A stretch of 64,000 nucleotides of DNA from an uncultured Ignavibacteriota bacterium (GCA_903900335.1 CAIUMP010000062.1:1-64000), one strand, 5' to 3'. Numbered from the stretch's first letter, positions 1 to 61,239 are shown. Notes: a model not told the origin generated them from the letters alone. A program made the numbers and translations.

Positions 1-606
1 CCCGATCAGTTCTGTCACGATACCATCGGCGAACCAACCGTTGTCACCCGTTGGAGAAAGGTCTTCGAATGGCAATATCATCAAACTCTTCCGCCCTTCC
101 CGCGTGGGTTGTGCCGCCCCCGGCACAACCTCCCCCCCTTTGGTGCTGCTGCTCCGAATGCTGGTGCCGAGGGCGGCACCAGCCACGCGGTCTTTTACTA
201 TTTGATAACTCGGCGCACTCGTGGCCTGCAACCCCAGCTTCCCCAGCGCGCGAATGATCGCATCAATGTTCGTCATCGGCGCGCGCTGAATGCCAGCCAA
301 CTGATATTCGAAATCGCGGGTGAGCGCGACCGGCTCCAGATCGAGCGGCAATATTTTCTTCCGCTTTTCGGACGCCAGCGATACCTCCTTCATCACATTG
401 TGCGACTCCATCGAGCTCGGCGATAGCAGCACAACGAACGCCTTGCACTCGTTGATCGCATCCACGATCTCTCCAGACCAACTCGTTGCCACATCAATCC
501 CAGATTGATCGATCCACACCGAGAGTCCGGCAGAGGCAAGCAACTCCGACAGCAGGTTTGCCTGCTCGGAGTCTTGTCGGGAGTAGGAGATGAAGATGTC
601 AGCCAT
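1..606 (-). CDS. TIR domain / TolB-like protein, partial (fourth member of tandem array)
   Basis: Open reading frame starting at the ATG at 606-604 and still open at the window edge, so only about 202 residues are visible. The N-terminus (MADIFISYSRQD) is a TIR domain almost identical to that of the next three genes. It is followed by a variable linker (about residues 136-168, with the stretch GEVVPGAAQPTREG) and the beginning of the TolB/FlgO-like domain (KSLMILPFEDLSPTGDNGWFADG). The linker is longer than in the paralogues starting at 4166 and 5907. The start overlaps the stop of the upstream gene by 8 bases, as at the other two junctions, so it is probably translated by coupling. TIR domains of bacteria are often NAD+-consuming enzymes. 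The conserved Glu of that family is present in the MKEVSLAS segment, but activity here is inferred. Confidence 0.85.
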   Translation of the reverse strand, partial: MADIFISYSRQDSEQANLLSELLASAGLSVWIDQSGIDVATSWSGEIVDAINECKAFVVLLSPSSMESHNVMKEVSLASEKRKKILPLDLEPVALTRDFEYQLAGIQRAPMTNIDAIIRALGKLGLQATSAPSYQIVKDRVAGAALGTSIRSSSTKGGEVVPGAAQPTREGRKSLMILPFEDLSPTGDNGWFADGIVTELIG

Positions 607-2428
607 TCGCGTTCACCTCCTTAGCCGCTGCTTGCTCCGCCTCAATCTTCTCCACCAACTCCCGCACCGCCTCCCACTCCGGCGTGCCATTGAGGGTGCC
701 AATGCGCTCGTTTTCGGCGTCGAGAAATGATCGTATGGCACGGATGTTTCGAAAACCCGCCTCGATCGATCTGCCAAAGGTTTGTTGAGCTGCGCCATAG
801 TCTTTCACCATTCGTTGCAGGCAGGCGGTATTGAACAGGGCCAGCCCATCCCGAAGATTTTCCAGCTTTCTCGCGGCGGCCCGGGCATCGTCATCCCGAC
901 CAGCATAGTAAAGCAGCGAGGCATGGGAGATGCGAGTCGTTTCCTCGTCCGGAAAGAGTTTCAGTCGCTTCTCGTAAAGGGGAATAGCGATGGACGACCA
1001 GTGCGCCTGTTTCTCCCTCTCCTTCGCACTGTTGCAGGAAAGCGCGAGATTGAATAAGGTAGGCAAGTACTCCGGATTTCGTTTCAGTGACTCTTCGAAT
1101 GGTGCGATCGCGCGGGCATCCTGATCGGTATTTTGGTAAAAAAAACCGAGCGAAAAATGGCTTAGGAAATCCTCGGGTGCGTTCTGCCTGTATTCCTGTG
1201 CGGCGACCTCGGCTTCCTCTAGTTTGCCCTGAAGCATGAGAACGGCGACAAGCGGGTTACTGGCTTTCCATAGATCAGGTTTCAGCCGGCGCGCCTCCTT
1301 GATAAGCGCGATCCCCTCTTCGAGCAGGGCGGGATCGCGAGTGTAATCGCGGTAAAGTGCTGCAAGTGAATTCGCTTTGGCTGAGTGCGCAGTCGCATAC
1401 GTGGGATCGAGCGCGATCGCTTCAGAATAAAGTTGTACCGCAAGCAGTAGGTCTTCTTTGGTCTGGCGCTGAAAATACTCATCTGCTTTTAGAAAGAACT
1501 CATAGGCCTCAGCATTTTCTGTGCCGCGCTCAGCAAGCTTCTTCTTTTCGTCGAAAGCGAGATGTACTTTCAACCCTTCGACAACCTTTAGCGCCACTGC
1601 CTCCTGAATTTCAAAAATGTCATTCATCACTCCCTTCATCGAATCCTGCCAGAGATGGTCGCCGGTTTCGATGTCGAGAAGACGGGAGGTGATCTTGATG
1701 TTGTCGCCGAACTTGCGGACATCGCCCTGTACGAAATAACGGATCCCCATTTCGCGAGCATACACTGGTAGCGTGCCTTGATACCGTTTGTAATCCTTCG
1801 TCGCCTGTTGATCTGCAACGCGGAGCGCCTTTACATTAGAAAGCGCGGATATCATCTCGCTGACGATGCCATCTGCGAACCAGCCGTTGTCGGCGGTTGG
1901 GGACAGGTCCTCGAAGGGGAGGATCATCAACGGCTTCCGCTCATCCTGCGTGGAGCGGACTTTATTCTGCGCATCCGTTGCGGGATCACATACTAAAGTC
2001 TGTGCTACACGGTCCTTTACAATTTGGTAGCTTGGTGCGCTCGTCGCCTGCAACCCCAGCTTCCCGAGTGCGCGAATGATCGCATCGATGTTCGTCATCG
2101 GCGCGCGCTGAATGCCCGCCAACTGATATTCGAAATCGCGCGTGAGTGTAACCGGTTCGAGATCGAGCGGCAATATCTTCTTCCGCTTCTCAGAGGCCAG
2201 CGACACCTCCTTCATCACATTGTGCGAATCCATTGAATTCGGCGAAAGCAGCACAACGAACGCCTTGCACTCGTTGATCGCATCCACAATTTCGCCCGAC
2301 CAACTTGTAGCCACATCAATCCCAGATTGATCGATCCACACCGAAAGTCCGGCAGAAGCGAGCAGCTCCGTCAGCAGATTTGCCTGCTCGGAGTCTTGGC
2401 GGGAGTAGGAGATGAAGATGTCAGCCAT
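599..2428 (-). CDS. TIR domain / TolB-like / TPR protein (array member 3)
   Basis: 609 residues. Residues 1-125 are a TIR domain (MADIFISYSRQD at the start; candidate catalytic Glu74 in VMKEVSLA). A linker of about 45 residues follows, then a TolB/FlgO-like domain (about 168-300, MILPFEDLSPTADNGWFADGIVSEMI and YFVQGDVRKFGDNIKITSRLLD), then tetratricopeptide repeats to the end (for example AEAYEFFLKADEYF and ALDPTYATAHSAKANSLA). There is no signal peptide or membrane segment, so it is probably cytoplasmic. The TolB-like/TPR half is the one usually seen behind class III adenylate cyclase domains; here a TIR domain takes the cyclase position. Its start overlaps the preceding gene's stop by 8 bases and its own stop overlaps the next start by 8. 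Function unknown; signalling or defence are inferences. Confidence 0.9.
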   Translation of the reverse strand: MADIFISYSRQDSEQANLLTELLASAGLSVWIDQSGIDVATSWSGEIVDAINECKAFVVLLSPNSMDSHNVMKEVSLASEKRKKILPLDLEPVTLTRDFEYQLAGIQRAPMTNIDAIIRALGKLGLQATSAPSYQIVKDRVAQTLVCDPATDAQNKVRSTQDERKPLMILPFEDLSPTADNGWFADGIVSEMISALSNVKALRVADQQATKDYKRYQGTLPVYAREMGIRYFVQGDVRKFGDNIKITSRLLDIETGDHLWQDSMKGVMNDIFEIQEAVALKVVEGLKVHLAFDEKKKLAERGTENAEAYEFFLKADEYFQRQTKEDLLLAVQLYSEAIALDPTYATAHSAKANSLAALYRDYTRDPALLEEGIALIKEARRLKPDLWKASNPLVAVLMLQGKLEEAEVAAQEYRQNAPEDFLSHFSLGFFYQNTDQDARAIAPFEESLKRNPEYLPTLFNLALSCNSAKEREKQAHWSSIAIPLYEKRLKLFPDEETTRISHASLLYYAGRDDDARAAARKLENLRDGLALFNTACLQRMVKDYGAAQQTFGRSIEAGFRNIRAIRSFLDAENERIGTLNGTPEWEAVRELVEKIEAEQAAAKEVNANG

Positions 2429-4166
2429 TGGCTTTTGCCTCCTGTTCGATCTGCTCCACCATTCGCATCACCTCCTCGTATCCCGGCTCATCGGCAAGCA
2501 TAACGGGATCGCCCGGCTTATCCAAGAGATTACTCCTCAGATTCCGTGTATTCTTGTACCCTGCTTCCATCGCTTTGCGGTAGGCTTCGAGCGATTCTGA
2601 CGCGTCGCCAAGCACAGCGAAGACGCCAGCAAGGTCGAAGAGGGAAGTGCAATCCTTAAGACTCCTTAGTCTTAACGCAGCTGCACGAGCAGCTTGTGTT
2701 TTGTCGGCCATGAAGAGCAGCTCGGCATGTCTAACCAAGTTGTGCTCATCATCGGGATGGAGCTTGAGATGACGTTCGAAATACGGTAGCGCCACTTTGG
2801 CCCAGTGCTCGCGTTTCTCCCGCTGGTCCTCACCGCAACTAAGGGGCAGATTGAACAGGGTTGAAAGATTATCCGGCTTCAGACGGGCCGATTCCTCAAA
2901 CGGAGCGATCGCTTTGGCAGATTGGCCCGAAATGCCATAGAAAAATCCGAGCGCGAAATGACTATAAAAGTTTAGAGGATCTTTCCGGGTGAATTCCGTT
3001 GCGGCTTCCTCAGCTTCGACGGTCCGGCCGCGGAACAGATGAATCATTGAGAGTGGCAAGTAGACAGAGAACAAGTCGGGCCTCAGCCTCAGCACCTGAT
3101 TACAGAGTACTTCCGCTTCATCCAAGAGTGAGGAATTGCTGTCGAAGACGCGGTAGAGGTTCGTCAGGGCAAGAGCCTGCAAGCGATAGGCCTCTGCATA
3201 GCCTGTATCGAGCTTGATCGCTTCTATTAAGAGCTGAACGGCAAGCTGGAATCCGTCCTTCGTCTGGCGAGAGTAGTATTCACTTGCCTTCATGTATAAT
3301 TCATACGCTTCGGCATTCTCCGTCCCGCGCTCGGCGAGCTTCTTCTTTTCGTCGGAGGCGAGATGGACTTTCAGCCCTTCGACAACATTCAGGGCCACCG
3401 TTTCCTGAATTTCGAAGATGTCGTTCATCGTGCCCTTATGCACGTCTTGCCAGAGAAAGTCGCCTGTCTCGACATCCAGTAATCGCGTCGTAATCTTAAT
3501 GTTGTCGCCAAACTTGCGGACATCGCCCTGCACGAAGTAGCGAATAGACATCTCCTTCGCATAGATCGGGAGTTGCCCTTTGTAGCTCTTAAATTCCTTC
3601 GTCGCTTGTGGGTCAGCAACACGCAAAGCCTTCACATTCGAAAGCGCCGAGATCAACTCGCTTGCAAGCCCATCAGCGAACCAGCCGTTGTCTCCTGTTG
3701 GTGACATATCTTCGAAGGGAAGGATCATCAAGCTCTTTCGAGCATCGGTCTCCTTGACGAGCTGAATACTCGGTGCCTGCGTTGCTTCTAAACCCAGCTT
3801 GCCGAGCGCACGGATCACGGCGTCGATGTTCGTCATCGGTGCTCGCTGGATACCGGCGAGGGCGTACTGCATGTTCTTCGGAAGCTCGACCGGTTCGAGA
3901 TCGAGCGGCAATATCTTCTTTCGCTTTTCACTTGCGAGCGAGACCTCCTTGACCACATTGTGCGACGCGACGGACGCAGGGGAGAGCATCACGATGAATG
4001 CCTTGCATGAGTCGAGCGCGTCCACAATCTCCTCGGACCAACTTGTCGCGGCCTCGATGCCACTGCGGTCTATCCAAACGGAAAGTCCGGCGGAGGTGAG
4101 CAACTCCGTCAGCAGGTTGGCCTGCTCGGAATCTTGACGGGAGTAGGAGATGAAGATGTCAGCCAT
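2421..4166 (-). CDS. TIR domain / TolB-like / TPR protein (array member 2)
   Basis: 581 residues with the same order of domains as its neighbours: TIR (1-125, Glu74 in VVKEVSLA), a short linker (126-143), TolB/FlgO-like (144-275, KSLMILPFEDMSPTGDNGWF) and TPR repeats (about 285-560). It differs most from the others in the TPR region (for example FDSNSSLLDEAEVLCNQVLRL), whereas the TIR and TolB-like parts are nearly the same as in its neighbours. This suggests recent duplication with divergence, or selection acting on the C-terminal sensor or partner-binding part. Start and stop both lie in 8-base ATGGCTGA overlaps with the flanking genes. No close Shine-Dalgarno sequence is visible at the start, which fits translational coupling. 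Confidence 0.9.
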   Translation of the reverse strand: MADIFISYSRQDSEQANLLTELLTSAGLSVWIDRSGIEAATSWSEEIVDALDSCKAFIVMLSPASVASHNVVKEVSLASEKRKKILPLDLEPVELPKNMQYALAGIQRAPMTNIDAVIRALGKLGLEATQAPSIQLVKETDARKSLMILPFEDMSPTGDNGWFADGLASELISALSNVKALRVADPQATKEFKSYKGQLPIYAKEMSIRYFVQGDVRKFGDNIKITTRLLDVETGDFLWQDVHKGTMNDIFEIQETVALNVVEGLKVHLASDEKKKLAERGTENAEAYELYMKASEYYSRQTKDGFQLAVQLLIEAIKLDTGYAEAYRLQALALTNLYRVFDSNSSLLDEAEVLCNQVLRLRPDLFSVYLPLSMIHLFRGRTVEAEEAATEFTRKDPLNFYSHFALGFFYGISGQSAKAIAPFEESARLKPDNLSTLFNLPLSCGEDQREKREHWAKVALPYFERHLKLHPDDEHNLVRHAELLFMADKTQAARAAALRLRSLKDCTSLFDLAGVFAVLGDASESLEAYRKAMEAGYKNTRNLRSNLLDKPGDPVMLADEPGYEEVMRMVEQIEQEAKANG

Positions 4167-5907
4167 TCGATTCCGCCTCTTGTTCTATTTTCTCCACCAA
4201 CTCCCGCGTCGCTTGCCACTCCAGAGTGCCTTTAAGCGTGCCGATGCCGCCATCCTCATCGTACAGAAATGATTTTATGGCTTGCATATTTCGAAATCCC
4301 GCCCCGATCGCTTTGCGAAACGTGAGTAGACCGGCAGAATAGTCTTTCAGCATGCATTGCAGGCAGGCGGTATTGTAGAGTGCACTTCCATCCCGAAGAT
4401 CATTCAGCTTTCGGGCGGCGCCTCGCGCTTCGTCATCCCGGCCCGCAAAATACAGGAGCACGGCATAACTGACCGGATTATCTTCCTCGTCCGGAAAGAG
4501 CTTCAGGCGCTTTTCATAAAGTGGAATGGCAATGGACGCCCAATGCTCCCGCCTCTCCTCTTCCTTCGCGCCGTTGCAGGCAATAACAAGATTGAATAAG
4601 GCAACCAAGAATTCCGGCTTGCGTTTCAGCGATTCTTCGAAAGGTGCGATCGCTTTGGCAGCCTGACCGGTACTACTATAAAAAAATCCGAGCGTGAAAT
4701 GGCTGATGTGATCCTCCGGCGCGTTGCAGATATAATCCTGCGCGGCGGCCTCCGCTTCGGCCTCCTTGCCCTGGAGCAAGAGAATGTCGGAAAGCGGGTG
4801 ATAGACCGCCCACAAATCGGGCTTCAACCGGCGTGCCTGGTTGATGAGTGCGAGCCCCTCTTCCAACTGCGCGGGATCGCGGGTGTAATTGCGGTAAAGA
4901 GCACCAAGCGCATTCGCTCTGTTTACACAAGCAATGGCATACGCGGGGTCAAGCGCGATCGCTTCAGAATAAAGCTGTGCCGCAAGCTGGAAGCCTTCTT
5001 TGGTCTGCCGGGCGAAATACTCGCCAGCTTTGAGATGTAATTCATACGCCTCGGCATTCTCCGTTCCGCGCTCGGCGAGCTTCTTCTTTTCGGCTGTGAC
5101 GAGATGAACCTTCAGCCCCTCGACAACCTTGAGCGCCACCGCTTCCTGAATCTCGAAGATGTCGTTCATCGTGCCTTTGTGCACATCTTGCCAGAGAAAG
5201 TCGCCAGTCTCAACGTCAAGCAATCGCGTTGTTATCTTGATCTGATCCCCGAATTTGCGAACATCCCCCTGAACGAAAAAGCGATAGTTCATCTCGTGAG
5301 CATACTTCGGAAGCGTGCCTTGGTACCGTTTGAAATCTTTCGTTGCTTGCGGGTCTGCGACACGCAGAGCCTTCACATTCGATAGCGCGGAGATCAACTC
5401 GCTGGCAAGCCCATCCGCGAACCAACCGTTATCGCCCGTTGGGGACATATCTTCGAATGGCAATATCATCAAGCTTTTCCGAGCGTCACTCTCCTTGACG
5501 AGCTGGATGCTCGGCGCCTGGGTTGCTTCTAAACCCAGCTTGCCTAGCGCGCGAATGATCGCATCGATATTGGTCATCGGCGTCCGTTGAATTCCGGCGA
5601 GATGATACGCGAGATCCCGAGACAGCGTCACAGGTTCGAGATCGAGCGGCAGCACCTTTTTATCTCGCTCTGTGGCGAGCGCAACTTCGCGCACGACATT
5701 CTTCGATGCCACCGAATTCGGCGAGAGCATCACGATCAGCGCCTTGCACGCATCTATCGCGTCCACAATTTCGCCAGACCAACTCGATGCCGCCTCAATA
5801 CTGGAGCGGTCGATCCAAACGGAAAGTCCGGCGGAGGTGAGCAACTCCGTCAGCAGGTTAGCCTGCTCGGAGTCTTGTCGGGAGTAGGAAATGAAGATGT
5901 CAGCCAT
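4159..5907 (-). CDS. TIR domain / TolB-like / TPR protein (first gene of array)
   Basis: 582 residues if started at the ATG at 5907-5905. An in-frame ATG at 5937 would add ten residues (MAFCRIVPSE), but all paralogues begin MADIFISYSRQD, so the inner start is preferred. TIR 1-125 (Glu74 in VVREVALA, one of the more divergent copies: TERDKKVLPLDLEP instead of SEKRKKILPLDLEP), TolB/FlgO-like about 144-275, TPR about 285-575. It is the first gene of the minus-strand array, so the promoter must lie in the gap 5908-6415. The C-terminus (EQEAESNG) ends in the AATGGCTGA junction that starts the next gene. Confidence 0.9.
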   Translation of the reverse strand: MADIFISYSRQDSEQANLLTELLTSAGLSVWIDRSSIEAASSWSGEIVDAIDACKALIVMLSPNSVASKNVVREVALATERDKKVLPLDLEPVTLSRDLAYHLAGIQRTPMTNIDAIIRALGKLGLEATQAPSIQLVKESDARKSLMILPFEDMSPTGDNGWFADGLASELISALSNVKALRVADPQATKDFKRYQGTLPKYAHEMNYRFFVQGDVRKFGDQIKITTRLLDVETGDFLWQDVHKGTMNDIFEIQEAVALKVVEGLKVHLVTAEKKKLAERGTENAEAYELHLKAGEYFARQTKEGFQLAAQLYSEAIALDPAYAIACVNRANALGALYRNYTRDPAQLEEGLALINQARRLKPDLWAVYHPLSDILLLQGKEAEAEAAAQDYICNAPEDHISHFTLGFFYSSTGQAAKAIAPFEESLKRKPEFLVALFNLVIACNGAKEEERREHWASIAIPLYEKRLKLFPDEEDNPVSYAVLLYFAGRDDEARGAARKLNDLRDGSALYNTACLQCMLKDYSAGLLTFRKAIGAGFRNMQAIKSFLYDEDGGIGTLKGTLEWQATRELVEKIEQEAESNG

Positions 5908-6415: not shown

Positions 6416-9205
6416 ATGAAAATTTCTACGGTTTCGTTTATGAATTTGGTGGGTCGGATGCGATTTATCAAACGAGGTGGTGCTTTGTTGATTGCGTGCC
6501 TGATGTTAGTTGGTGGATATGCGATTCATGAGGTGAATGGCCACCAGTTCGGGATCGTTGGACAGACGCAGAAATCATCGGCTCCGGGCTGCGGGGGATT
6601 TGGGTGCCATTGTAGCTCTGCCGGTTCCAACACGACCGTGTCGCTGACCTGCTCCAGTGGTTCTTCGCCATTCACAGCATCGCCGAGTACTTCCTACTCG
6701 TTCACGGTGACGGTGGCGACCAGTAATAGCAACGAAGACCACGCTGGAATTAACGTCGCAACCTATTCAGGAACCGGACTGACGGCCGGTTCGGGGTTGT
6801 ATCTGTCCTCAAGCGAATTGACTCATAGTTCACCAAAGATCCTTTCGGGAGGATCGGCGAGCTGGACGTTTACGTACACATCGGGCTCCTCGACAGGTTG
6901 GGACACCATTTATGCCACGGGGCAAGCCGTCCATGGGAGTTCCCCCAGCTGTACGGATGAGTGGAACCACGCTTCGAAGTTCATCATCCATACGGTTGTA
7001 CCCACCACTTCGAGACGCTTTGAATTTGGCAGAACTTCGATGAATATGGGGTCGGTTCGAGTGGGGACGCGCAAAGCGGATAGCTTGCACGTTACCTCGA
7101 CCGGACAGGCTGCGATAACGGTCAATGCGAGCGGGATGAAAGGAAGTGCACCATATACGTTTTACAGTCCCGGTACGTCGGGCAGGTTGCTGGTGCCTCC
7201 GAGCGTTGAGATGGACAGTGTGATATTCCAGCCTGTTTCAAGAGGTACGATCACAGACTCTGTACTATTTACGACGAACTCTGATACCATTCCGGATCAG
7301 AGGAAGGGAGTATTCGTCACTGGTACCGGGATTCAAGCGGTATTTTCAAATGCAAATTCCAGTTTGAACTTTGGGAACTTGCGGATCAATCAGACGAAGA
7401 AGCTGGCCTTCCCGTTCTACAATTCTGGGGATGATACGCTTTTCATATCCACGCCTACCATTTCAGGTAGTGGATTTACGCTCACGCAGCAACCACATCA
7501 ACTGTGGCTCTTGCCGAATGCGTACGACACCGTGATCGTACAGTTCGCATCGACCGCAAAGCAATTGTACTCAGGCACCTTGACCTTCGCCGCTTCCAAT
7601 GGAGTTTCAGCTCCGGCTATTTCACTGTCGGGGAACGGCGTTGTCCCGCAGATTTCTTACACGACTCCTCAGGGAATCGGTGGCATACGAGTGGGCTCGA
7701 ATCTCGCGGCGGTTATCAACATCAAGAATGTCGGCAATGACACGCTTCACCTCTCAAACGGTTCATTGACCCAGACCGGGACGAAATTCTCCTTAGGTGC
7801 GTACGATGCCACCTTAGCTCCAAATGCTCAAGGGACGATTCACATCAATTACCTCCCAACCGCAGAGCGCGTTGATTCAGCGACGATCCATGTCACTACG
7901 GATGACCCGACAAGTAATTTCCCCACGATCACGGTCATTGGATCTGGACTTCTGCCCCACATGGCGCTTGCTGACCACGATACAGTGGACATGGGGACGA
8001 TCAAGGTGTCTGATGTCACCTCGCGCCTATTCATGATCAATAATAATGGAGGCGATGTACTCACACTTGGAAGCGGAACTGCCGCAGGCCCCGCCCCATT
8101 CGGTATCGCTGCGAAGAGCAGCACAGTGTCGGCAGGCGGCTCTGGCTCGGTTACGGTCAGCTTTGTGCCGTTAGCTCCGGGTAATTATGCTGGCTCGCTC
8201 GTCGTGGCGGGAGATGATCCGTCCAATCCTGCAGACACCATTTATTTGAAGGGGAGTGCTATCAATAGCTCACTTTCTCTATCGCCATCAAGCGTAGATT
8301 TTGGGTCGGTGCCGGTTGGTATGACCGTTTACGATACCGTCTTGATGAGCAACACCGGCACCGCTGCAGTCAACATCGCTGGGTACCACCTACTCTCGAC
8401 GACGGCCGCGTTCATTGTCGCTGATTCGACTGCGAAACAGGTCAAGGCGAACTCTACGAGCAAGGTGATCATTGGATTCGCTCCGATCGCGGCGACATCC
8501 TATACTGGAGTCCTCACGCTATCAACGGATGACAACAGTGCTCCGAATCGCACGATCAGTCTATCAGGAACAGGGCTTAAGGGAGCGTTATCATTGGCAC
8601 CGACCGCGCTGGCGTTTGGGAATGTTGACTCCAGTAAGAGCAAAACGCTTCACGTGACATTGAAGAACACGGGTTCCGCTTCGGTTTCGGTGACCTCTGC
8701 GAGTTTAACATCAAGTGGCACCGATTTTTCCTCCAACGCGCCCGCTACTGCCAGCGTGAAGGCCGGTGACTCTCTTGGAGTCGACATAACCTTCTCACCA
8801 AAGAAGGCAGGAGATCAGTCTGGTACTCTGACCTTCACACTCGATGATAAGTCAGCGCTTACCGTTTCAATGACTGGTCACGGGGTAGGGAAGCTTGATA
8901 CGGGTGGTGTAAAGGGAGCTGTGGCTCAAGATCGTGGCAAAGAAAGCTTCTCGATAATGGTCAGCCCAAATCCAGCAAAGGAAGTAGCTGCTATCCAACT
9001 GCAAATGGCAGCTACAATGGCCGCAACAATTCGCATATTTGATGCGTCGGGCCGCGAAGTTCGAAGCACCCCGCTGGGTATCCTCAGTGCCGGTGACCAC
9101 ACGACCGAAGTTTCGGTGGGTGGGCTGGCGAGCGGGAGTTACTTCGTCAGGGTAGAGAATTCTGCAGGTGGTGTGAGTGAAGCCAGACTAATCGTTCAAC
9201 ACTAG
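6416..9205 (+). CDS. Secreted choice-of-anchor D/ASH repeat protein with type IX secretion C-terminal domain
   Basis: 929 residues. After a signal peptide (hydrophobic LLIACLMLVGGYAI) comes a Cys-rich segment (GCGGFGCHCSS) and a beta domain to about residue 195 that resembles choice-of-anchor V domains. About six ASH/choice-of-anchor D immunoglobulin-like repeats follow (each with a LxFGxVxVG or similar start, for example SLSPSSVDFGSVPVG and SLAPTALAFGNVDSS). The last 85 residues are a T9SS type A sorting domain (SPNPAKEVAAIQL, then IRIFDASGREV and SGSYFVRVE). The product is probably exported by the type IX system and attached to, or released from, the cell surface. Start choice is open: ATGs at 6440 and 6458 would give shorter signal peptides. 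A bidirectional terminator follows at once. Confidence 0.88.
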   Translation: MKISTVSFMNLVGRMRFIKRGGALLIACLMLVGGYAIHEVNGHQFGIVGQTQKSSAPGCGGFGCHCSSAGSNTTVSLTCSSGSSPFTASPSTSYSFTVTVATSNSNEDHAGINVATYSGTGLTAGSGLYLSSSELTHSSPKILSGGSASWTFTYTSGSSTGWDTIYATGQAVHGSSPSCTDEWNHASKFIIHTVVPTTSRRFEFGRTSMNMGSVRVGTRKADSLHVTSTGQAAITVNASGMKGSAPYTFYSPGTSGRLLVPPSVEMDSVIFQPVSRGTITDSVLFTTNSDTIPDQRKGVFVTGTGIQAVFSNANSSLNFGNLRINQTKKLAFPFYNSGDDTLFISTPTISGSGFTLTQQPHQLWLLPNAYDTVIVQFASTAKQLYSGTLTFAASNGVSAPAISLSGNGVVPQISYTTPQGIGGIRVGSNLAAVINIKNVGNDTLHLSNGSLTQTGTKFSLGAYDATLAPNAQGTIHINYLPTAERVDSATIHVTTDDPTSNFPTITVIGSGLLPHMALADHDTVDMGTIKVSDVTSRLFMINNNGGDVLTLGSGTAAGPAPFGIAAKSSTVSAGGSGSVTVSFVPLAPGNYAGSLVVAGDDPSNPADTIYLKGSAINSSLSLSPSSVDFGSVPVGMTVYDTVLMSNTGTAAVNIAGYHLLSTTAAFIVADSTAKQVKANSTSKVIIGFAPIAATSYTGVLTLSTDDNSAPNRTISLSGTGLKGALSLAPTALAFGNVDSSKSKTLHVTLKNTGSASVSVTSASLTSSGTDFSSNAPATASVKAGDSLGVDITFSPKKAGDQSGTLTFTLDDKSALTVSMTGHGVGKLDTGGVKGAVAQDRGKESFSIMVSPNPAKEVAAIQLQMAATMAATIRIFDASGREVRSTPLGILSAGDHTTEVSVGGLASGSYFVRVENSAGGVSEARLIVQH

Positions 9206-15726: not shown

Positions 15727-15733
15727 GAACACG

Positions 15734-15767
15734 TTCATAATTCATCATTCATAATTCATAATTTCCC
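15734..15767. repeat. Short tandem repeat tract before nuoM
   Basis: The 44-base gap between nuoL and nuoM is filled by imperfect copies of the heptamer-like unit ATTCATA (TTCATAATTCATCATTCA and on to ATTTCCC), ending three bases before the nuoM ATG. A closely similar tract sits before the gene at 18945. Confidence 0.75.
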
Positions 15768-18884: not shown

Positions 18885-18913
18885 GATCCTGAGGCGGAAA
18901 TGATGACCTTCGC

Positions 18914-18943
18914 AATTCATCATTCATAAATCATCATTTCCCC
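18914..18943. repeat. Short tandem repeat tract before nnrDE
   Basis: AATTCATCATTCATAA, then ATCATCATTTCCCC, ending two bases before the ATG at 18945. It shares most of its sequence with the tract at 15734-15767, and both occupy the leader next to a start codon. Confidence 0.75.
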
Positions 18944-59686: not shown

Positions 59687-60209
59687 CACCAGCGTCGAAA
59701 CAGCGCCGTGCGAAGTCATCATCCGACGCCGAATTGCCGCGCCGCGCGAGCTTGTCTTCGACGCCTTTACTGATGCCTCGCAACTGGCGAAGTGGTTCGG
59801 CCCACGAATCTTCACGGCCACCGCCGAGACCGATCCTCGCGTGGGTGGCCGCTATACGCTCGCTATGCACGGTCCCGAGAACGGCCCGCCCGAGATGCGC
59901 GGCCCGTTCCCGATAAAGGGCGAATATCGCGAAGTCGTCCGCCCCGAGCGACTCGTCTATACCAGCGACCTATCCGACCACCCGCAAAGCTGGAAGGATA
60001 TGCTGAAGCGCAGCATCGCGGGCCTCGGGAGCGAGAGCTTTCTCACGTCCCTCGTCACGATTACGTTCGAAGAAGTGAACGGCGATACCAACTTGACGAT
60101 CCGTAATCGATTCGAGTCCAATGCGATTCGAGATGGATACCTCAAGCTTCAGATGGGTGAAGGCTGGAGCGGAAGTCTCGATAAGCTCGAAGAGCTACTT
60201 GCGAAATGA
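59670..60209 (+). CDS. SRPBCC (AHSA1-type) domain protein 1
   Basis: 179 residues, one START-like SRPBCC domain. The family opening VIIRRRIAAPRELVFDAFTDASQLAKWFGP and the later DPRVGGRYTLAMHGP are clear, with the closing LKLQMGEGWSGSLDKLEELL. The fold makes a hydrophobic pocket for an unknown ligand. ATG at 59670 overlaps the ArsR gene by 17 bases, so it is co-transcribed and probably coupled. Confidence 0.9.
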   Translation: MATKNNTSVETAPCEVIIRRRIAAPRELVFDAFTDASQLAKWFGPRIFTATAETDPRVGGRYTLAMHGPENGPPEMRGPFPIKGEYREVVRPERLVYTSDLSDHPQSWKDMLKRSIAGLGSESFLTSLVTITFEEVNGDTNLTIRNRFESNAIRDGYLKLQMGEGWSGSLDKLEELLAK

Positions 60210-60246: not shown

Positions 60247-61239
60247 ATGGCAGAAAAAAATGAAATGACCGTTGCTACCGCACCGCGAGAAGTAATCATC
60301 AGCCGAGTTATCAACGCTCCGCGCGGGCTTGTCTTCGATGCGTTCACGAAGGCGGAGCACCTCGCACGGTGGTTCGCGCCGGATGGGTTTCGATGCACTG
60401 CCGAGACCGATCCACGCGTGGGCGGCATCTACCGCATCACAATGCACGGTACCCCCGGCGATTCAAAGGGGAGCCGGGACGCGCCGCCCGAACCGTACGC
60501 GAACGAAGATCTTCCCATGTTTGGCGAATATCTTGAGTTTGCGCGTCCGGAGCGGCTCGTCTATACAAGCAACATGGAGGCGCATCCCGAAAGTTGGAAA
60601 GAGTTGATCCGCAGCAACATCGAAAATCCACACGAAGCGAATTTTCTTCTTGCGACCACGGCCATTACCTTCGACGATCTTGGTGGCAAGACCAAACTCA
60701 CAATTCACGCGAAATTCGAGACCGACGCAATTAGAGATGCCTATAGTAAGACCGGCATGGAAGAGGGCTGGCGCCAAATTCTCGAACGGCTTGATACATT
60801 TCTTAAACCGGAGTCGAATAAGACGGTCGTCGTCGAACGTATATATAAGGCACCGATAGAACAGGTATGGGACGCAATCACCAATAACGATGCGATGAAC
60901 CAATGGTTTTTCAAGCTTCCGGAATTCCGGCCTGAAGTTGGGTTTGAGTTTGAATTCGGGGGTGGGCCGCCGGAGCGGACCTACTTGCACAAATGCAAGG
61001 TGGTCGAGGTAATACCGCAGAAGAAGCTCGCGTATTCGTGGTGCTATGATGGATACGAGGGCAACTCGATCGTCACCATTGAGCTATCGCCGGAAGGTAA
61101 TGGCACGAAGCTGCGACTGACGCACTCGGAGCTTGATACATTCGGTGTCAATAACAATCACGATTTCGATGCGCATAACTTTGCCGACGGATGGAATTCG
61201 ATCATCGGCACATCACTGAAAAAGTACTTGGAGGGCTAA
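60247..61239 (+). CDS. Double SRPBCC (AHSA1-type) domain protein
   Basis: 330 residues from the ATG at 60247 (MAEKNEMTVATAPREVI); the frame extends upstream into the previous gene but is not coding there. It contains two SRPBCC domains in one chain: first about 15-180 (VIISRVINAPRGLVFDAFTKAEHLARWFAP), closest to the previous protein, and second about 200-328 (VVERIYKAPIEQVWDAITNNDAMNQWFF), a more divergent one. Fusion of two family members in one protein suggests a heterodimer-like pocket pair. Confidence 0.9.
   Translation: MAEKNEMTVATAPREVIISRVINAPRGLVFDAFTKAEHLARWFAPDGFRCTAETDPRVGGIYRITMHGTPGDSKGSRDAPPEPYANEDLPMFGEYLEFARPERLVYTSNMEAHPESWKELIRSNIENPHEANFLLATTAITFDDLGGKTKLTIHAKFETDAIRDAYSKTGMEEGWRQILERLDTFLKPESNKTVVVERIYKAPIEQVWDAITNNDAMNQWFFKLPEFRPEVGFEFEFGGGPPERTYLHKCKVVEVIPQKKLAYSWCYDGYEGNSIVTIELSPEGNGTKLRLTHSELDTFGVNNNHDFDAHNFADGWNSIIGTSLKKYLEG

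Follow-up and report, generated by a model that had tools for sequence, protein, structure and literature searches.

The left edge of the assembled contig C62 from an uncultured Ignavibacteriota bacterium encodes a tandem array of genes in which an N-terminal TIR domain is joined to a TolB/FlgO-like domain and a series of TPRs. In this study, we analysed the 64,000-nucleotide stretch of DNA that carries the array (GCA_903900335.1 CAIUMP010000062.1:1-64000, hereafter the window), whose first base is also the first base of C62. Our preferred reading, to which we give a probability of about 0.45, is that these genes belong to a lineage-specific family of one-component TIR receptors. In such receptors the TolB-TPR part would act as the sensor, the TIR domain would hydrolyse NAD+ without forming cyclic ADP-ribose (cADPR), and the outcome would be growth arrest or defence, while the family as a whole would evolve by birth and death and by exchange of halves.

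The features of the array are listed in Table 1. An identical 8-bp sequence, ATGGCTGA, is found at all three junctions (3/3) and contains the stop codon of one gene together with the start codon of the next. Hence, genes 3, 2, 1 and 4 look like a single translationally coupled operon, with gene 3 in first position. All four genes match the Pfam TIR_2 profile (E values of about 2e-20 to 3e-21; 73.7-76.6 bits against a curated cut-off of 28), TPRs were detected in all three genes that are complete, and weak NCBIfam matches to CadC (NF007540) and TolB (TIGR02800) mark the middle region as TolB/CadC-like. These data agree well with the three-part architecture proposed in the initial annotation, which had also described at least four near-identical genes. 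Four TIR domains are indeed present, but only the first TolB residues of gene 4 are available, since its TPR part lies beyond the contig end. The near identity did not hold: the whole proteins are 60-67% identical to one another and their synonymous sites are close to saturation. A nucleotide identity of ~88-89% is reached only by the two leftmost genes, 1 and 4, in the stretches that encode their TIR domains. Runs resembling the array were also found in other genomes, including G007, where the contig measures 1.8 Mb. Because of this divergence, the near-saturated synonymous sites and the similar runs elsewhere, an assembly artefact or sequencing duplication was ruled out.

Table 1. Features of the TIR-TolB-TPR array, in window coordinates
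Feature	Position	Strand	Remarks
TIR-TolB-TPR gene 4	1..606	-	cut by contig end; TIR and start of TolB-like domain only; 202 aa, open
TIR-TolB-TPR gene 1	599..2428	-	complete, 609 aa
TIR-TolB-TPR gene 2	2421..4166	-	complete, 581 aa; used as reference copy and for structure modelling
TIR-TolB-TPR gene 3	4159..5907	-	complete, 582 aa; heads the array
TIR domain, gene 4	271..597	-	
TIR domain, gene 1	2093..2419	-	
TIR domain, gene 2	3831..4157	-	putative catalytic Glu is residue 74
TIR domain, gene 3	5584..5898	-	
TolB/FlgO-like and TPR module, gene 1	599..1939	-	
TolB/FlgO-like and TPR module, gene 2	2421..3740	-	CadC-like sensor module
TolB/FlgO-like and TPR module, gene 3	4159..5481	-	
8-bp stop/start overlap ATGGCTGA, genes 1/4	599..606	-	
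8-bp stop/start overlap ATGGCTGA, genes 2/1	2421..2428	-	
8-bp stop/start overlap ATGGCTGA, genes 3/2	4159..4166	-	
In-frame REP-like palindrome GTAGCACAGACTTTAGTATGTG, TIR-TolB linker of gene 1	1987..2008	-	26 dispersed genome matches at <=2 mismatches, own included
Two perfect palindromic hairpins, TIR-TolB linker of gene 4	107..183 (160-183, 107-130)	-	

Across this genome we counted 15 intact copies, located on C62 (three), C39 (two), C41, C60, C44 (seven) and C21, with reading frames of ~580-610 aa. Together with truncated or decayed copies, they are spread over about ten sites. Two copies are cut by contig ends, namely C62:1-606 and the one on C29, a contig whose end falls within a C-terminal family fragment, and shorter remnants lie on C53, at C44:96.9 kb and at C39:45.3 kb. 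The decayed copies at C44:96922-97568 and C53:80674-81234 keep the N-terminal TIR end and the C-terminal end, the middle having been deleted. A family member at C56:225404-227125 has a single in-frame TAG at the C-terminal end of its TIR domain, and may be a pseudogene, a sequencing error or a case of readthrough. Another TIR_2 protein, of 394 aa and devoid of the TolB-TPR module, is encoded at C56:162172-162471 (L057:9031-10215), near two tandem ORFs of 777 aa. When the TolB-TPR module profile was run against this genome, no carrier without a TIR domain was found, and the further matches spanned TPR repeats only.

The expansion is shared by the relatives of this bacterium, named ones being Candidatus Kapaibacterium and Ignavibacteriae metagenome-assembled genomes from permafrost, palsa and soil. 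Each of the 13 genomes in the taxonomic family gave TIR matches (1 to 24 per genome), with up to about 20 diverged copies per genome and tandem runs that reach ten consecutive genes in G003. Thus, the homologous arrays that the initial annotation proposed to look for do occur. Its alternative, that all relatives would share one single-copy orthologue with a housekeeping role, is contradicted by the presence of multiple copies in 12 of the 13 genomes, the remaining one being only 67% complete. For 48 further genomes of the class, only the TolB-TPR part was covered among the matches listed. TIR-TolB-TPR proteins were also detected in Sphingomicrobium nitratireducens and other proteobacteria. When searched with its own TIR-TolB-TPR protein, the 2.3-Mb genome of this alphaproteobacterium (G061:C1, L103) yields 18 matches, several of which are in tandem. 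This distant expansion is apparently independent of the one in Kapaibacteria, and it implies that the architecture is older or that it arose or spread more than once.

Sequence divergence is unevenly distributed along the proteins. Among 66 full-length copies, mean pairwise identity was 50% in the TIR domain and 48% in TolB, against 19% in the linker and 31% and 27% in the TPR parts, in line with the earlier proposal that copies differ most in linkers and TPRs and least in TIR and TolB. In a comparison of dN/dS between parts, also suggested there, the TPRs had the highest omega and TolB and TIR the smallest, with values below 1 throughout and most pairs saturated. Positive selection is therefore unsupported, and apart from the faster evolution of the TPRs nothing points positively to adaptive diversification of the sensor.

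On the other hand, the two halves of the proteins have different histories. In gene 3, the TIR domain forms a pair with its counterpart from a C39 copy (support 100/99), and the TPR part groups with C41, gene 1 and C60; alternative groupings were rejected by AU tests (p-AU 2.6e-6 and 0.0019). As these groupings had been picked after the first trees were seen, differences at fourfold-degenerate sites were added as an independent measure. Between gene 3 and the lexA-adjacent copy of G003, 53/82 such sites differ in TIR-TolB and 27/112 in TPR (p=1.6e-8). A similar imbalance separates the G003 copy from the C41 copy of our genome, both of which stand beside lexA (49/86 against 24/111, p=6.4e-7), and the opposite pattern appears within the G003 array (42/100 in TIR-TolB against 53/66 in TPR, p=1.1e-6). 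All three results pass a Bonferroni correction for 1,959 pairs. The breakpoint lies near residue 280, at the TolB/TPR border, and a pair in a second genome, G002, has a dS of 0.40 in TPR and 1.32 in TIR. These data indicate that output and sensor halves are exchanged among paralogues by recombination, even at a conserved chromosomal site. This module exchange adds to what had been noticed in the initial annotation.

Recombination between long homologous tandem stretches could also make copies and mosaics neutrally, with little functional differentiation among them. The C56 copy with its TAG codon and the remnants on C53, at C44:96.9 kb and at C39:45.3 kb would be expected from such a process, as would the REP-like elements inserted in linkers. 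Nevertheless, we regard a neutral expansion as very unlikely: purifying selection is strong in every part (omega of ~0.08-0.27 between close copies), there are TIR pairs with a dN of ~0.01 at a dS of ~0.6-0.95 (from pN 0.01 and pS 0.54), and 15 frames have stayed intact.

The linkers deserve separate mention. Their diversification was discarded as a sign of sensor evolution, because the longer linkers hold hairpin elements, some of which are dispersed in the genome. Apart from those of genes 1 and 4, longer TIR-TolB linkers with in-frame hairpins are present at L050:9992-10015 (C39:43992-44015) and C44:163566-163589. One dispersed hairpin type, GTAGGTCGGGC..GCCCGAC, has 10 copies in the genome, of which two fall within TIR genes (binomial p of ~0.0025), and a second type, GTAGCACAGACTTTAGTCTGTG, has 26 copies at <=2 mismatches. 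Both types start with GTAG, as do the REP elements mobilised by RAYT transposases. Six matches to Y1_Tnp, the REP-associated tyrosine transposase family, were located at C44:208008, C24:71581, C54:2175, C26:8109, C53:72266 and C1:48435 (L175-L180), and the corresponding proteins may be what mobilises the GTAG hairpins. Two other repeats were seen in the window: a 58-nt direct repeat (59819-59876 and 60396-60453; 78% identity, spacing of 577 bases) located in adjacent ORFs that resemble tandem paralogues, and an AT-rich intergenic repeat of the ATTCATCATTCATAATTCATAATTTCCC type (15731-15767 and 18906-18942), which also occurs upstream of some TIR genes (L049).

Regarding the chromosomal setting, our context scan covered 20 genes, one of which encodes another TIR protein while the other nineteen flank family copies. 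Almost all of the nineteen are related to housekeeping or secretion; they include SecA, an Omp85/POTRA (BamA-like) protein, LptF/LptG, LexA, a radical-SAM/UPF0004 enzyme and a SIS-domain protein, as well as secreted or type IX-sorted proteins and a TonB-receptor-plug protein. Most mobile defence systems differ from such housekeeping surroundings. No defence-island setting was found among the scanned neighbours and no conserved partner gene across the sites compared, where neighbours vary from site to site. A phage origin was discarded since no phage record matches, and a plasmid origin because plasmid matches are confined to the TolB-TPR part, several of them being annotated as adenylate/guanylate cyclases. 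Altogether, with mostly housekeeping and secretion neighbours, presence throughout the taxonomic family (13/13 genomes) and no phage matches, the genes do not have the profile of a mobile defence island. Further sites were also matched between species, with copy numbers that vary per site, and the chromosomal sites of the family are old. The C41 copy adjoins lexA (L051:7385-8300), and TIR genes neighbour the homologous lexA in G001-G005, mostly in divergent orientation; loci of this kind from five other genomes of the genus are L155, L159, L163, L169 and L172, divergent in several cases. Given this proximity, the expression of one family member may be linked to the SOS response; we identified no LexA box. 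The promoter motif TAnnTTTG, of Bacteroidota type, adjoins the ATG in 4/51 family genes and 4/273 background ORFs, and was dismissed as too weak a signal.

These surroundings bear on what the sensors might detect. Several neighbours are outer-membrane, secretion or secreted proteins (the type IX-sorted protein at window 6416-9205, the TonB-receptor-plug protein and Omp85), and a large divergent repertoire with a common output and shuffled modules would suit receptors for kin, self/non-self or programmed death, in which the TPR sensors recognise proteins injected or secreted by competitors, not phage, and the TIR domain delivers death. We find this option improbable, as no linked toxin or immunity genes were found and the neighbours differ between sites.

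The TolB-TPR module is not restricted to TIR proteins. Elsewhere, homologous modules follow Ser/Thr kinases, a class III cyclase, OmpR/CadC-type winged helices or TIR domains. The initial annotation considered that the module is usually paired with adenylate cyclase and that TIR replaces it here; the TIR domain does occupy the output position, but the partners found elsewhere also comprise Ser/Thr kinases, OmpR/CadC-type winged helices and, in other proteobacteria, TIR itself. Judging from these sequence relationships, TolB-TPR acts as a general input module. The order of parts, with an N-terminal output, a TolB/FlgO-like alpha/beta domain and then TPR helices, is that of a CadC-like/TolB-TPR one-component sensor. 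AlphaFold2 models reached a mean pLDDT of 85 and 87.5, and in Foldseek searches generic TPR proteins were followed by, among others, the CadC periplasmic domain, which was matched in full (E 5e-8 to 1e-7). At a TM-score of ~0.42 and an rmsd of 14-15 A, this relation is topological rather than close. Inspection of the sequences and the model revealed no apparent hydrophobic segment between TIR and TolB; thus, the sensor half is presumably cytoplasmic.

Conservation within the TIR domain was assessed on the 66 full-length copies, which come from 11 genomes. Glu74, the equivalent of SARM1 E642 and AbTir E208, is invariant (66/66), as are S7, Y8, W31, D33, W43, S68 and P87. Hence, the catalytic glutamate, whose loss from all copies the initial annotation had named as the finding that would speak against it, has been retained in every one. 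By alignment, D33 probably corresponds to AbTir D167. The TIR profile matches structures of NAD+-cleaving TIR domains (CRISPR-associated Cat1, 3e-9; SARM1, 6e-8; AbTir, 4e-6), and in the SARM1 alignment the region of the conserved glutamate is in register. The equivalents of AbTir E208 and D167 are required for NADase activity in AbTir and TcpC (PMC11374754).

The tryptophan of the WxxxE motif is absent from all copies (0/66). Position 70 is occupied by N in 58 copies, H in 6, S in 1 and E in 1, so NxxxE replaces WxxxE in nearly all of them; alphaproteobacterial TIR-TolB-TPR proteins retain the tryptophan. This residue is strongly conserved in cADPR-producing TIR domains and less so in non-catalytic or ADPR-producing ones, and the W204A change abolished the NADase activity of AbTir but the equivalent change in TcpC did not (PMC11374754). 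The same source, citing Manik et al. for the point, gives the tryptophan as required for 2'cADPR formation in AbTir. Its absence argues against cADPR production; we predict no cyclic signal, but either ADPR and nicotinamide or no catalysis at all. This bears directly on whether the TIR domains make cADPR for a separate effector encoded elsewhere, as in a Thoeris-like two-gene system. In favour of such a system, the domains match ThsB_TIR as well as TIR_2 in Pfam, and there is a weak match to Thoeris ThcB4. However, the residue needed for AbTir cyclisation is missing from 66/66 copies and no ThsA-type gene was recognised among the scanned neighbours, and we consider a cyclic signal the least probable of the explanations discussed here. 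A search for STALD (PF18185) returned no matches in the 13 family genomes, nor in the control genomes. The best PADLOC, Thoeris and retron-TIR matches concern the TIR part only; the NCBIfam ones are far below their cut-offs, with a Thoeris type III equivalog score of 36 against 220.

The missing tryptophan can also be read in favour of a non-enzymatic TIR domain, its conservation being weaker among non-catalytic or non-cADPR TIR domains (PMC11374754). This is the main rival to our preferred reading: the TIR domains would serve as assembly scaffolds that oligomerise together or with other partners, and the proteins would be housekeeping or stress-signalling adaptors. The chromosomal housekeeping surroundings, the sites conserved between species and the presence in every genome of the taxonomic family are consistent with such a role, as is the regulatory nature of the other outputs of the module (kinase, cyclase, winged helix). 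Yet Glu74 and other residues of the active-site region are strictly invariant across TIR domains that are only ~50% identical. Moreover, a range of 1 to 24 TIR matches per genome, accompanied by decayed and truncated copies, is unlike a housekeeping regulator, and the sensor halves diverge fast and recombine. We therefore hold the scaffold role to be a serious though doubtful explanation.

Bacterial TIR effectors are well known. With TIR anti-phage proteins (Thoeris ThsB, TIR-SAVED, short Argonaute TIR-APAZ, SpbK and Cat1), the family described here has in common a TIR output with an alpha-C glutamate placed on a sensor protein, and profile and PADLOC similarity is confined to that TIR part. 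It differs from them in having a TolB-TPR sensor instead of SAVED or Argonaute, no partner gene, chromosomal multi-copy arrays and NxxxE. E. coli CadC consists of a winged helix and a periplasmic TolB-like/helical sensor. CadC and CadC-like regulators share with our proteins the module order, an alpha/beta TolB-like domain followed by a helical bundle; here, a TIR domain takes the place of the DNA-binding domain, the sensor is presumably cytoplasmic and the TPR array is longer. In the rhizobial class III adenylate/guanylate cyclase-TolB-TPR proteins and the Ser/Thr kinase-TolB-TPR proteins of Zixibacteria and Ignavibacteria, the module is homologous over ~400 residues (25-33% identity) and the output differs. 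The proteins of Sphingomicrobium nitratireducens and other Alphaproteobacteria have the same three-part layout and tandem pairs, at ~25-30% identity and with WxxxE kept. TIR-TPR proteins as such were already known (PMC7075850). Those of Actinobacteria, group 6 of that TIR survey, also join an N-terminal TIR to C-terminal TPRs; they exceed 700 aa, carry other TIR group motifs and are described without mention of a TolB-like domain (PMC7075850). Our literature search, which had most subscription papers out of its reach, returned none on TIR-TolB-TPR receptors, Kapabacteria TIRs or their lineage expansion.

According to our preferred reading, that of a one-component receptor family, the TPR superhelix and the adjoining TolB/FlgO-like domain would recognise a ligand or a protein, and recognition would alter the oligomeric state and bring the N-terminal TIR domains together. 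Once assembled, these would most likely hydrolyse NAD+ to ADP-ribose and nicotinamide, the product being other than cADPR because the WxxxE tryptophan is missing, and the cell would be arrested or killed, as in anti-phage and other conflict TIR systems. The architecture, the copy number, the retained glutamate, the absent tryptophan, the outputs swapped in other bacteria and the module exchange are observed; we infer the NADase activity, the oligomerisation trigger and the defence role. At its fixed chromosomal sites, the family evolves by tandem duplication, loss and decay, and also by recombination in which TIR-TolB halves receive new TPR partners, giving many sensors with one common output.

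Bacterial TIR systems have mostly been studied as single mobile defence units of two or three genes. Here, all the sampled genomes of the taxonomic family combine a TIR output with a sensor module in wide use, and the combination has multiplied into a recombining repertoire that is passed on vertically. By analogy, the swapping of halves resembles the pattern of immune receptor families. A broader proposal, which we advance tentatively and rate as unlikely, is that up to about 20 vertically inherited TIR receptors per genome, whose halves recombine at fixed sites, constitute a prokaryotic analogue of NLR/TLR diversification that acts through NAD+ hydrolysis without cyclisation. In addition, a natural set of TIR domains with the catalytic glutamate and without the WxxxE tryptophan would be useful to separate NAD+ hydrolysis from cyclisation. 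The family thereby makes it possible to ask, in a testable form, whether bacteria hold receptor repertoires in which diversifying sensors are coupled to a fixed death or signal domain, as in the immune families of plants and animals.
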